A DNA stretch of 64,000 nucleotides from Acidimicrobiaceae bacterium (GTDB lineage: Bacteria > Actinomycetota > Acidimicrobiia > Acidimicrobiales > RAAP-2): assembly GCA_027306585.1 (NCBI GenBank), contig DAHUZJ010000104.1:57499-121498 (forward strand). Direction: 5' to 3'. This document shows positions 36,391 through 42,365 of this stretch, piece after piece. The translations under genes and the position numbers were made by a program. Position 1 is the first letter of the stretch. Every line of letters starts with the position of its first letter. Under the pieces are notes generated by a model. It saw only the letters and a list, made by a program, of their open reading frames with translations. It searched no databases and was not told the origin of the DNA.

Positions 36391-36852
36391 TCACAGTGTA
36401 CCGAGGCGCCGCACCTCCCCACCAGCTGCGCCGACGGCCGCCTCGGTGACGAGGTCCGGCGCCAGGTCCCGCAACGGGGCGAGCACGAAGCGGCGGTCCC
36501 ACATGCGGGGGTGGGGCACCTCGAGGTCGGCCTCGACGACCACGGTCTCGCCGACGAGCAGGACGTCGGCGTCCAGCGTCCGGGGTCCGAACCGGACCGT
36601 CCGCACCCGGTGGGCCTCCCGCTCCAGGGCGGCGCACCGTTCGAGGAGGCGACGCGCGGTGTCGTGGGTGTCGAGCTCCACAACCAGGTTGAGGTAGGAC
36701 GGCTGGTCCTCGGGACCACCCACCGGCGCCGTCTCGTAGAGGGGCGAGACGGCGACGACGTCCCCGCCCGCTCGCAGCGTCGCGACGGCCCGGCGGAGCT
36801 GCTGGCGCCGGTCGCCCAGGTTGGCGCCGAGCCCGAGGAAGGCCCGGGTCAC
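36391..36852 (-). CDS. folK: 2-amino-4-hydroxy-6-hydroxymethyldihydropteridine pyrophosphokinase
   Basis: VTRAFLGLGANLGDRRQQLRRAVATL...VSPLYETAPVGGPEDQPSYLNLVVEL...RTVRFGPRTLDADVLLVGE...VPHPRMWDRRFVLAPLRDLAPD. Confidence 0.96.
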   Translation of the reverse strand: MTRAFLGLGANLGDRRQQLRRAVATLRAGGDVVAVSPLYETAPVGGPEDQPSYLNLVVELDTHDTARRLLERCAALEREAHRVRTVRFGPRTLDADVLLVGETVVVEADLEVPHPRMWDRRFVLAPLRDLAPDLVTEAAVGAAGGEVRRLGTL

Positions 36853-37253
36853 CCCGCGCCCGGCGGCGCGTGGCGCGTCCCGGCCGCCGCGCGGTCCCGC
36901 ACGACCCGCACACCGACCGACCCGAGCTGGGCGGCGATCGGCGGCCGCAGCTTGCGCACCGTGACCTGCACCGTCGCCACGCGGTCGTCCTCGTCCAGCA
37001 GTGCGCGGGCGACGGCGTCGGCCAGCGCCTCGAGGAGCAGGAACGAGCGGCCCGCCACCACGTCGACCGCCCGGGTGCACAGCGCCCCGTAGTCGGCGGT
37101 GTCCTCGAGGGCGTCCGTCACCCCGGCCCGCCGCAGGTCGAGGCCCACGTCCAGGTCGAGGGCGAAGGGCTGGGCGCGCTCGCGCTCTTCGGGGAGCACC
37201 CCGTGGACGCCCATCACCCGCAGGTCGCGAACCTCGATGCGGTCCCCGTCCAC
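36849..37253 (-). CDS. folB: Dihydroneopterin aldolase
   Basis: DRIEVRDLRVMGVHGVLPEERERAQPFALDLDVGLDLRRAGVTDALEDTADYGALCTRAVDVVAGRSFLLLEALADAVARALL; GTGA overlap with folK. Start inferred. Confidence 0.92.
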   Translation of the reverse strand: MDGDRIEVRDLRVMGVHGVLPEERERAQPFALDLDVGLDLRRAGVTDALEDTADYGALCTRAVDVVAGRSFLLLEALADAVARALLDEDDRVATVQVTVRKLRPPIAAQLGSVGVRVVRDRAAAGTRHAPPGAG

Positions 37254-37261
37254 CGGCAGGG

Positions 37262-37774
37262 TCAGACTGGCTGGCGGGGCGGGAGCCTGGCCGACGTCAC
37301 CACCAGCTCCCGGCCGGCCGACCCCATCGGATGGCCAACCAGGCGCTCGACCAGGTTGATCGCCTGGGCGCTCGAGGCGAGCCGGCCCGACCACACGAGG
37401 AAGCCGGCGGCCACGCCCATCACCCGGTCGCCGAGCCCCTCCTGGTGCACGAGGATGCGCAGGCCGTCGCGCAGGGAACGGTCGAGGTCCCGGTAGCAGT
37501 CGGCAAGTGCCGGGCGGGCGTCGATGTTGGGCGCCAGCGGGAAATGGGCGTAATCGAGGTCTTCCTCGTCGTAGGCGTAGAGGTTGTGATGCGAGGTCAG
37601 CAGCGACACGACCCGGTTGAAGCCCTGGCCCCGCAGCCAGATGATCTCCTCCTGGCGGCGGACGCGCCGGTGGTTGGGCGCGAAGCCTCCCGGCCGTTCG
37701 CTGATGGCCAGGCGGTCCCGGATGATCCAGGTGAAGTTCCGCGGAGGGATCCCCGCCGCCCACTTGCCCTTCAT
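37262..37774 (-). CDS. Protein-tyrosine/dual-specificity phosphatase-like protein with Cys-less signature (HQEGLGDR); candidate pseudophosphatase
   Basis: NFTWIIRDRLAISERPGGFAPNHRRVRRQEEIIWLRGQGFNRVVSLLTSHHNLYAYDEEDLDYAHFPLAPNIDARPALADCYRDLDRSLRDGLRILVHQEGLGDRVMGVAAGFLVWSGRLASSAQAINLVERLVGHPMG follows a DSP/PTP layout; P-loop Cys is Gln. Confidence 0.75.
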   Translation of the reverse strand: MKGKWAAGIPPRNFTWIIRDRLAISERPGGFAPNHRRVRRQEEIIWLRGQGFNRVVSLLTSHHNLYAYDEEDLDYAHFPLAPNIDARPALADCYRDLDRSLRDGLRILVHQEGLGDRVMGVAAGFLVWSGRLASSAQAINLVERLVGHPMGSAGRELVVTSARLPPRQPV

Positions 37775-37875: not shown

Positions 37876-38697
37876 TCACGCCACGGCCGCCACTCGCGCG
37901 GTGCCCACCAGGGACGCCGCATCAACCGTGGGGGCCACGTCGTGGACGCGGACCATGTCGGCCCCGGCGGACATCGCCCAGGCAGCCGTCGCCAGCGATG
38001 CCTCGAACCGCTCGGTCACCGGGAGCCCCGCCCCGCCACGAGCGCCGAAACGCGCCAGGAACCGCTTCCGGCTGGTTCCCACCAGCACCCGGGCCCCGGC
38101 CCGGTGGGCGGCGACGGCCAGGCCCGGCAGGCCGGCGAGCAGCTGCAGGTTGTGGTCGCCGGTCTTTGCGAACCCGATCCCGGGATCGACCCAGACCTCG
38201 TCGATGCCGGCGTCCCTCGCCTGGGCCGCGAGGTGCAGCACGTGGCCGTGGACCTCGGCCACCACGTCGTCGTAGTGGGCCAGGCTGTCCATCGTCGCCG
38301 CGGTCCCACGCCGGTGCATCGCCACCCAGCCGACGCCGCACTCGGCGGCGACCGACCACAGCTCGCCCGACACGTCATTGAGCAGGGTGGCGCCGGCGGC
38401 GGCGGCGGCCCGGGCGACCCCCGGCTTCACGGTGTCGATCGAGACGCGCACCTCCGGCGCGAGCGCCTCCACCACCGGCAGGACGCGGCGCAGCTCTTCG
38501 GCCTCGTCGACCGGTCGGGCCCCCGGGCGGCTCGACTCGCCGCCCACGTCGACGACATCGGCGCCCTCGGCGACCATCTCGCGGCCCCGGGCGACGGCGT
38601 TGCCCGGGTGCAGGAACCGTCCGCCGTCGGAGAAGGAGTCGGGCGTCACGTTGAGGACGCCCATGACAAGGGGCCGGTCCTCGGCGTGGGTGGGCAC
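37876..38697 (-). CDS. folP: Dihydropteroate synthase
   Basis: LVMGVLNVTPDSFSDGGRFLHPGNAVARGREMVAEGADVVDVGGESSRPGA...LLNDVSG...VDPGIGFAKTGDHNLQLL...VGTSRKRFL. Confidence 0.97.
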   Translation of the reverse strand: MPTHAEDRPLVMGVLNVTPDSFSDGGRFLHPGNAVARGREMVAEGADVVDVGGESSRPGARPVDEAEELRRVLPVVEALAPEVRVSIDTVKPGVARAAAAAGATLLNDVSGELWSVAAECGVGWVAMHRRGTAATMDSLAHYDDVVAEVHGHVLHLAAQARDAGIDEVWVDPGIGFAKTGDHNLQLLAGLPGLAVAAHRAGARVLVGTSRKRFLARFGARGGAGLPVTERFEASLATAAWAMSAGADMVRVHDVAPTVDAASLVGTARVAAVA

Positions 38698-38823: not shown

Positions 38824-39432
38824 CTATCGACCGTGGACGAACTGCATCGCCTCCGCACGGGTGGAGGGGTCGGAGCGGAACAGCCCCCGGACCGCCGACG
38901 TCACCGTGAGCGTGCCCGGCTTCTTGACGCCCCGCATGGACATGCACAGATGCTCGGCCTCCACCACCACGAGCACGCCGCGGGGGGCCAGCGTCCGCTC
39001 GACGGCGTCGGCGATCTGGGTCGTCATGCGCTCTTGGACCTGGAGGCGCCGGGCGAACCCGTCCACCAGCCGGGCCAGCTTGGAAAGGCCGGTGATGCGG
39101 CCGTCGCTGGCCGGGATGTACGCCACGTGCGCCCGGCCGATGAAGGGGACGAGGTGGTGCTCGCACAGCGAGGCGAACGGGATGTCCCGAACCATGACCA
39201 TCTCGTCGTGCTCGGCCGCGAACGTGACGGTGAGGTGCCGGGACGGGTCGTCGACGAGGCCCGAGAACAGCTCTTCGTACATGGCGGCCACCCGTCGGGG
39301 CGTGTCGCGCAACCCCTCACGCTGGGGATCCTCGCCGATGGCGGCGAGCAACTCGGCCACGGCCTGTTCGGCGCGGGGGATGTCGACCGGCACCGGCGCT
39401 CCTCTCTCGGGTCCTCTCAGCATCGCACCCAC
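38824..39432 (-). CDS. folE: GTP cyclohydrolase I
   Basis: [27 protein letters not shown]...[64 protein letters not shown]...[13 protein letters not shown]. Confidence 0.97.
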
Positions 39433-39484: not shown

Positions 39485-40060
39485 TCAGCCGGGCGACGAC
39501 CCCAGGTAGGCGTGCACCCCGCGCAGGTTGCGGTAGCGCTCGGCGACGTCGAGCCCGTACCCGACGACGAACTCCGAGGCGATGGTGAAGCCTACGTACC
39601 GCAGGTCCAGGTCGACGCGCTGCTCCCCCTCTTTCACCAGGAGGGCACAGACGTCGACGCTCGCCGGGCGGCGGGCGTGGAGGTACTTGCGGAGGTAGTT
39701 GAGCGTCAGGCCGCTGTCGATGATGTCCTCCACCACGAGGACCCGCCGCCCCGTCAGCTCGGCGTCGAGGTCCTTCACGATGCGGACGACGCCCGACGTC
39801 CGGGTGGCGCTGCCGTAGGAGGAGACGGCCATGAAATCGACGTCGACCGGCAGCTCGATGGCCCGGCACAGGTCGCTCATGAACAGCATGGCGCCCTTGA
39901 GCACGCCCAAGAGGAGCGGCGGGTCGTCGGCATAGTCGGCGGTGATGCGGGCCCCGAGCTCGGCGACCTTGGCGGCGATCTCCTCGGCGCCGACCCGCAC
40001 CGGGCCGATCTCGTGCGCTGCCCATCCCGGGGCCACTTCGGTGGCCTCCCCCGTCGTCAC
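39485..40060 (-). CDS. hpt: Hypoxanthine phosphoribosyltransferase
   Basis: [75 protein letters not shown]. Confidence 0.97.
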
Positions 40061-41181
40061 CTGCGGAACCCTACCGGAACGGTGCCACCTGTCCCCTTCC
40101 CGCTCCCGCGGTCGCTCTCAGCTCGGTCGCCCCGCGGCGTGCTCCCGGGTCCGGCGTCCTGGGCGGGACCGGGCGGTGACAGCCGGAGGCGGCCGGCCGA
40201 GCGGCGGACCCGCCATCCGCCCGCCACCTCGGTGGCGCGGGCCAGCCCCCGGGCCACGGCGAGGACACGGGCGACGTCCCCCGACGACGGCGGCTGCCGA
40301 TCGAGACCGGCGCCGGGCGCGTCGGTGCCGCCGGTGCCCACCGGGCGCCCGCCGGTCGGCGGGGTGGCGCCCGAGGCCCGCAGCCAGCGGCGAACGGCGC
40401 GGCGTCCGAGCGGGGCGGGCGCAGCCCCGAGGGCCCGGGCGTCCTCGGGGTCGGGCAGCGACGCGGCCGCCAACCCTTCGAGGAAGGCGGCATCGTCCCG
40501 GCACAGGTCGGCGGTCCGTGCCAGGAGGGGGACCGGTTCGCGGCCGGCGATCGACCGGCACAGCGGCAGCAGCTCGTGGCGGACCCGGTTGCGCAGGTGG
40601 GCCGGGTCCTCGTTGGTCGGGTCGGTCAGCCAGTGGAGGCCGGCGGCGGTGCACACCGCTTGCGCCTCGGCCCGTCGCACGCCCAGGAGCGGGTGCTCCG
40701 GTCCTGGTCGCATCGCCGCCAGCCCGTCCAGTCCCGAGCCGCGCAGCAGGTGGGCGAGGACCGTCTCGGCCTGGTCGTCCATCGTGTGGCCGGTGGCGAC
40801 CTCCGGGGGGAGGACGCCATAGCGGGCAGCGCGAGCCCGCGCCTCGAGGTCGGGCCCCGGCGGTACGCCGACCCGGAGGGCACGAAACTCGGCGCCGACT
40901 CGCCGGGCCGCGTCGGCCACCACGCCGGCCTCGTCGGCCGACCCCGGCCGCAGCCCGTGGTCGACGTGAACTGCCGTCACCCGGCACCCGGCGGCAACGG
41001 CCAGGACGAGGAGCGCCGTCGAGTCCGGGCCGCCCGACACGGCGCAGGTGAGCGGCGTGCCCGCCGCGGGGAACGTGCAGCGGGGGAGGATGCCGGCGAC
41101 GGCCGGCAGCGCGGCCAGCGCGGCCCGCTCCGGCTGCCCGGGCAGCGCCCCGGCCGGACCCGTGCCCGCACCGGGGGTCAC
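40057..41181 (-). CDS. tilS: tRNA(Ile)-lysidine synthase
   Basis: LTCAVSGGPDSTALLVLAVAAGCRVTAVHVDHGLRPGSADEA...ATGHTMDDQAETVLAHLLRGSGLDGLAAM; start placed at GTG 41181. Confidence 0.93.
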   Translation of the reverse strand: MTPGAGTGPAGALPGQPERAALAALPAVAGILPRCTFPAAGTPLTCAVSGGPDSTALLVLAVAAGCRVTAVHVDHGLRPGSADEAGVVADAARRVGAEFRALRVGVPPGPDLEARARAARYGVLPPEVATGHTMDDQAETVLAHLLRGSGLDGLAAMRPGPEHPLLGVRRAEAQAVCTAAGLHWLTDPTNEDPAHLRNRVRHELLPLCRSIAGREPVPLLARTADLCRDDAAFLEGLAAASLPDPEDARALGAAPAPLGRRAVRRWLRASGATPPTGGRPVGTGGTDAPGAGLDRQPPSSGDVARVLAVARGLARATEVAGGWRVRRSAGRLRLSPPGPAQDAGPGSTPRGDRAESDRGSGKGTGGTVPVGFRR

Positions 41182-41186
41182 GGCCG

Positions 41187-42365
41187 TCAGCTGGCGGCCG
41201 GCATGGCCTGCACCCGGGCGACCCATCGGTCCGGCTCCCGGATCTCGGACAGGGCCGGCAGCCATTCGGGCCCCTGCCACACCTTGTCCAACAGCGCCGT
41301 CCCGCCGGCCTGCTCGACGGCGTACACGAAGGCCTCGCCTTCGGCGTACTGGCGAAACTTCGCCTCGAGCCCCAGCAGGCGAAGCAGCACCTTGGCCGGC
41401 CCGCGTGCCTGCTCGCGGCGCTCCCGGAGCACGGCGCCGAACCGCTCCGCGCCCGGCACCGCCGCCGCGCCAGCCCGGTCCATGACCACGTCGCCGTGGC
41501 CCTCGAGCAGGCTCATGAGCGCCTGCAGCCGGCGGATGGCCTCCATCTGCTCCTCGCCGGCCACCAGGCCGATCATGCCGGCGTCCTCGAGCGGGCTCTC
41601 ACCCGACCGCAGCTGCTCCGCAACCCGGCGCACCATCTCGGCCAACCGGTGTGGGTCGGCGCGGAAGGGCTCCAGGCCCTGGTCGACCAGCGAGAGGAAG
41701 TGGTCCCGCAGCCACGGCACGGCCGTGAACTGGCACCGGTGCGTGACCTCGTGGAGGGCCAGCCACAGCCGGAACTCGCGGGAGGGGAAGCCGTAGCGCG
41801 ACTCGAGCGACACCACATTGGGCCCCACGTAGTAGAGGACGTCCTGGTCCTCCGACATCTCCTCGGTGATGAGGAGGTCGTACTGGCCGAGCACCCGGGT
41901 CGACATCCACGACAGCACGGCGCCGAGCTGGGCCCCGCTCATCGCCCGGCCGGCACCCGACATCGTGCCGGCGAGCGACTCGGGCAGCAGCTGGGTGAGG
42001 CCGGCCAACGGGCTCGAGCGCCGCGCCTCGGCGCGGCGCTCCTCGTACTTTCGGAGGGTGGGCCCGAGGAGCCGCTGCATCGACGCCACGTTGGCCCGCA
42101 CCCAGCCGGGACGATCGGTGACCATCGCCCGACCCGGCGACGGGGCACGCCAACCGGTGGACGCCGCCACCAGCTCCTCGGCTTGGGCGGTCAGCTCGAC
42201 GAATTCGTCCTGGACGGCGGCAGCCCGATAGCCGAGCGGCAGCGGTCGGCGAGCGAGCAGCCGCTCGGCGACCCGCTCGGCGACGGTCCAGTCGATCAGC
42301 CCGGGTCCATCGGCCGGGCGCTCCCCGCCGGCCTCGCCGTCGGCGCGGTCGAACGGCGCCGTCAC
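41187..42365 (-). CDS. Zinc-dependent metalloprotease (actinobacterial DUF2342-type)
   Basis: LWLALHEVTHRCQFTAVPWLRDHFLSLVDQGL (HEXXH), FPSREFRLWLALHE; GTG start overlaps the upstream stop. Confidence 0.88.
   Translation of the reverse strand: MTAPFDRADGEAGGERPADGPGLIDWTVAERVAERLLARRPLPLGYRAAAVQDEFVELTAQAEELVAASTGWRAPSPGRAMVTDRPGWVRANVASMQRLLGPTLRKYEERRAEARRSSPLAGLTQLLPESLAGTMSGAGRAMSGAQLGAVLSWMSTRVLGQYDLLITEEMSEDQDVLYYVGPNVVSLESRYGFPSREFRLWLALHEVTHRCQFTAVPWLRDHFLSLVDQGLEPFRADPHRLAEMVRRVAEQLRSGESPLEDAGMIGLVAGEEQMEAIRRLQALMSLLEGHGDVVMDRAGAAAVPGAERFGAVLRERREQARGPAKVLLRLLGLEAKFRQYAEGEAFVYAVEQAGGTALLDKVWQGPEWLPALSEIREPDRWVARVQAMPAAS

Follow-up and report, generated by a model that had tools for sequence, protein, structure and literature searches.

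Setting of the gene in the operon

In the window, the 64,000-nucleotide stretch of DNA that was analysed, the genes DUF2342, tilS, hpt, folE, folP, X, folB, folK, DUF2520 and panC follow one another on the same strand (Table 1). The names DUF2520 and panC, downstream of folK, are ones that we presume from inspection of the sequence. X is an intact frame of 170 codons, and its placement between folP and folB on one strand, as the sequence-only reading had it, was confirmed by the coordinates and strand of all three genes; the inferred start of folB falls about 8 bp past the X stop codon. A second, full-strength folP paralogue was detected on another contig of the same genome (G000:C105:6756-7517), and several relatives likewise carry one.

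Table 1. Positions of X, of its segments and of neighbouring genes in the window
Feature	Position	Strand	Evidence
X, 170 aa, PTP/dual-specificity-phosphatase fold without catalytic Cys (predicted)	37262..37774	(-)	ORF, homologs, AF2, Foldseek
P-loop equivalent of X, residues 109-117, VHQEGLGDR; family consensus Hx[DE]xxx[DE]	37424..37450	(-)	
Most conserved X segment, residues 26-46, ERPGGFAPNHRRVRRQEEIIW	37637..37699	(-)	
folP, dihydropteroate synthase, upstream neighbour of X	37876..38697	(-)	TIGR01496, 266 bits
folB, dihydroneopterin aldolase, downstream neighbour of X	36849..~37253, start inferred	(-)	TIGR00525, 99 bits
folK	36391..36855, start approximate	(-)	TIGR01498, 125 bits
folE, GTP cyclohydrolase I	38824..39432	(-)	TIGR00063
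hpt, hypoxanthine phosphoribosyltransferase	39485..40060	(-)	TIGR01203
tilS, tRNA(Ile) lysidine synthetase	40057..41280, N-terminus approximate	(-)	TIGR02432

Predicted fold and P-loop

The AlphaFold2 model of X (pLDDT 93, pTM 0.89) has a dual-specificity/PTP fold according to Foldseek, which returned 258 matches below 0.001, the best being DUSP23 (2img; E 2e-8, TM 0.74/0.83). When PDB chains were searched with the single sequence, a weak match to a dual-specificity phosphatase (DSP) was obtained (25xa, E 0.004), and a profile of 57 X sequences recovered the same chain at E 2.9e-10, together with human DUSP3. The phosphatase layout first proposed from the letters alone is thus borne out by structure prediction as well as by profile search. 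A Pfam search up to E 10 gave nothing for X itself, nor did NCBIfam or PHROGs, and only 4 of 57 family members touched DSPc (Pfam PF00782; best E 0.004), so that X does not fall within that family. The fold and the order of its elements are nevertheless those of DUSP23/VHZ, of the small archaeal and bacterial DSPs (Tk-PTP, PDB 25xa) and of DSPc, with which X aligns over an N-terminal 'W.i...LA.s..PGG' segment and the strand-P-loop-helix core. In contrast to these proteins, X lacks the HCX5R signature, and its Arg-rich invariant segment and acidic P-loop are absent from the DSP alignments compared.

Since an H-x6-R string also occurs in 54% of shuffles of the X protein, and is uninformative by itself, the identification of the P-loop rests on the fold. 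In the model, the loop L-V-H110-Q111-E-G-L-G-D-R117 is flanked by a strand (107-111) and a helix (116-128) in a PTP-like setting, in agreement with the earlier assignment of VHQEGLGDR. That reading had further described a Cys replaced by Gln, with His, Gly and Arg kept. The copy in the window does carry these three residues, and the Cys-based site is gone throughout the family, HCX5R being present in none of 174 distinct homologs; however, Gln is not fixed. At position 111, the site of the nucleophile, we found Q in 74 homologs, R in 28, G in 18, H in 16, C in 8, E and A in 7 each, D in 5, and others, and two species of one genus differ there (G in G203, A in G180). Arg117 is kept in 118 of the 174, about two thirds. 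Because no homolog has HCX5R, loss of the Cys-based site is not a strain-specific mutation or a sequencing error, and a one-off Cys-to-Gln change was rejected given the variability of position 111 across the family. We also considered whether the eight homologs with Cys111 might be surviving phosphatases, and rejected this because none has Arg at +6; six of the eight (VHCDRxSEWL or similar, no Arg) belong to f67, a family of another actinobacterial class.

What is conserved lies elsewhere. H110 is kept in 166 of the 174 homologs, and positions 112 and 116 are acidic in 164 and 165, respectively, D and E interchanging freely at both. Twelve residues are identical in all 96 aligned orthologs (P11, W16, G29, G30, R36, R39, R40, E43, W46, Y68, H110 and G120), and the family as a whole has a fixed N-terminal pattern, ERxGG....HR..RR.EE..W, in addition to the P-loop Hx[DE]xxx[DE]. 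The invariant constellation thus comprises W16, E26-R27, G29, R36, R39-R40, E43, W46, Y68, H110 and the acids at 112 and 116. G29, R36, R40 and W46 are invariant in the distant f67 family too, with R39, E43 and G30 nearly so, and the ten alignment columns identical across both families cluster in the N-terminal segment and the P-loop. Residue 85 is acidic in 82 of the 96 orthologs, at a site that may correspond to the general-acid Asp loop after the fourth strand; the loop varies there and the register is uncertain.

Since position 111 drifts and Arg117 is unconserved, while 110, 112, 116 and the N-terminal residues are fixed, these alignments indicate that the whole P-loop has been rebuilt rather than one residue swapped, with conservation shifted to Hx[DE]xxx[DE] and to the Arg-rich opening of helix 1. 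The fixed acids at 112 and 116 should disfavour binding of phosphate in the loop. The same features speak against a single Cys-to-Gln swap that left a phosphate-binding loop in place. The pseudophosphatases of STYX type resemble X in having a DUSP fold from which the catalytic Cys of HCX5R is gone (PMC10211241). They differ in that X, a bacterial protein fixed across a whole class, retains neither a conserved P-loop Arg nor, judging by its acidic residues, a phosphate-binding loop. In STYX, restoration of the motif is reported to bring activity back (PMC10211241 and its reference 81), whereas one restored Cys should not suffice in X, because the Arg is unconserved and the loop acidic.

Such strict conservation might instead mean that X is catalytically active, with H110, E43, R36/R39/R40 and the acidic residues 112 and 116 making up a new centre for catalysis or metal binding, and perhaps with a nucleotide or RNA phosphate as substrate. 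Indeed, twelve residues identical in every ortholog and ten columns common to both families would be unusual for a pure scaffold. However, the D/E swapping at 112 and 116 is more like a role in charge than in catalysis, and H110 corresponds to the structural His of PTPs. We know of no PTP-fold enzyme with such a rebuilt centre, and we regard this explanation as unlikely.

Distribution and linkage to the folate genes

That X is a real gene is borne out by its distribution. It was detected in 163 of the 173 genomes of its own family and in 233 of the 247 genomes of its class (apparently Acidimicrobiia), down to about 34% identity; it is present in 171 of 175 good genomes and in 120 of 125 genera of the class, genomes of about 1 Mb included. 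Named matches were to Acidimicrobiales/Acidimicrobiia. In some own-family genomes that lack X, the sole folP match had low similarity to the folP of the operon, and no other panel genes lay beside it; absence there is uninformative because the operon contig is probably missing. On this distribution, X is a core protein of the class, probably ancient and vertically kept.

Among 398 genomes drawn from across the phylum, relatives outside the class were found only in f67, where 30 of 42 genomes have one. They are about 23-30% identical to X members, with W16, L22, A23, E26, G29, R36, R40, W46, S57 and H110 in common, and they likewise have a predicted PTP fold (pLDDT 89; DUSP14, E 2.5e-5). One weak PHROG match was obtained for a distant f67 relative. 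The f67 genes (L206-L211, L230-L241), whose loop reads HCD...EW with a Cys and no Arg, lie away from fol and tilS, and the gene upstream in L206, L207 and L209 looks like a YbgC-type thioesterase.

Among about 210 loci, many of them near-duplicates, the order folP-X-folB was found in 156 and folP-X-folK in 16; in families f24 and f29, folB is found at another place in the genome. Adjacency of folP and X is strong across most of the class. The expectation that X and the folate genes should occur together did not hold. Three genomes, G186 (one contig, 2,158,157 bp), G296 and G373, from three genera of family f3 (same order), have folate genes but no X. We take G186 to be A. ferrooxidans, and f3 is presumably Acidimicrobiaceae. 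In these genomes (L212-L214) tilS-hpt-folE-folP-folB-folK is intact, the folP and folB matches lie 33-108 bp apart, and X was not found anywhere in any of the three. Conversely, folE, folP, folB and folK gave no match above threshold in five X-bearing genomes of another family, G180, G203, G211, G318 (one contig of 4.97 Mb, 99% complete) and G362, the only trace of folP in G180 being a 22-bit stray match, and G376, which has X, kept only folE of the four. In all six an intact X directly follows tilS, and the comparison of G203 with G180 (dN 0.10, dS 1.0) indicates that X is under purifying selection in genomes without fol genes. In several genomes of family f2 (L225-L229, L047), one of them the single 4.97-Mb contig, the de novo route to folate thus seems to be gone altogether.

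These results bear on the suggestion that the ligand of X is a dihydroneopterin phosphate or some other intermediate of folate synthesis, which X would chaperone or sense within the pathway. The guess of the sequence-only reading, a dead phosphatase that binds such ligands, was a sensible one, because in most bacteria the steps that strip dihydroneopterin triphosphate of its phosphates are unassigned (PMC1971073), and the frequent folP-X-folB order is in its favour. So is the pattern in genus g69 (about 1 Mb), in which all 7 tested genomes lacking X also lack folP and 12 of 13 tested genomes with X have it (Fisher p 1e-4). This co-loss could reflect a functional tie, or deletion or non-assembly of one block, and is ambiguous because the g69 genomes are incomplete. 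However, the dissociation of X from folE, folP, folB and folK in both directions contradicts a role with a pteridine-phosphate ligand, and the acidic P-loop and unconserved Arg117 also speak against it, so that we consider it very improbable. The job of X is probably not making folate, and we lean towards the view that X is neither an enzyme nor a dedicated sensor of that pathway.

If not folate, the partner might be TilS or tRNA, with X a PTP-fold derivative that binds RNA or TilS, an idea that overlaps with other readings of X. Consistent with this, X lies directly downstream of tilS where the fol genes were lost or moved (15 loci), overlaps it by 4 bp in L051, has an invariant Arg-rich segment, and bears Lys-rich tails of 277-300 aa in three species of one genus and of 80 aa in another. 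The adjacency, however, is inherited from a single ancestral operon and may reflect inertia, the f67 genes are not near tilS, other tails are Pro/Ala-rich rather than basic, and the mean charge of the core is near zero. Overall, we think such a partnership improbable. The Lys-rich tails are C-terminal and resemble nucleic-acid-binding tails (L048, L054 and L056, 277-300 aa, about 30% Lys; L033, 80 aa, with AKKVAATKAPAKK-type repeats). As a general proof of RNA binding they were rejected, since most tails are short or Pro/Ala-rich.

Putative role of X

Taken on its predicted fold and its alignments, X would be a pseudophosphatase in the broad sense: the fold kept, the essential catalytic residue gone. 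The reading that we favour, with some reservation, is that X is an ancient pseudophosphatase of PTP/dual-specificity fold with a rebuilt pocket, and that it is a module for binding or regulation within the tilS-hpt-fol housekeeping operon. Acidic residues of the loop, kept in place by the cluster of Arg residues that opens the first helix, would fill the former phosphate pocket; from the anatomy of the PTP fold, the Arg-rich segment and Hx[DE]xxx[DE] would be expected to meet in space. With its pocket filled by acids, X would not hydrolyse phosphate in the manner of a PTP. Instead of catalysing a reaction, it may bind, scaffold or regulate a partner, either a protein or RNA, and would be needed by the housekeeping functions of the operon, in which tilS is its most persistent neighbour. 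Against this reading stand the joint loss of X and folP in g69, which could mean a functional tie, and the strong folP-X adjacency.

A bolder idea is that X founds a new PTP-fold family, in which the phosphatase site became an invariant Arg/His/acid centre with an activity or ligand of its own (possibly tRNA- or TilS-related), occurring in two actinobacterial classes, in one of which it would be near-essential. We hold this only tentatively and think it rather doubtful.

In the literature searched we found no bacterial family of DSP-fold pseudophosphatases, and the known pseudophosphatases that have been reviewed are human proteins of the DUSP, myotubularin or PTP-receptor type (PMC10211241). 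The published list of class-specific signature proteins of Acidimicrobiia, which like X are class-restricted and have no assigned function, was built from Acidimicrobium ferrooxidans proteins (PMC5962788). X could not be on that list because G186, apparently a genome of that species, lacks it.

These findings carry a caution about inferring function from operon position, since the folate neighbours are separable from X. Few bacterial pseudophosphatases have been described, and X would for that reason be valuable as a natural example of a pseudoenzyme that an entire class has retained. A core protein of a whole, ecologically abundant bacterial class, for which no family model was found, looks like a phosphatase that gave up its chemistry.
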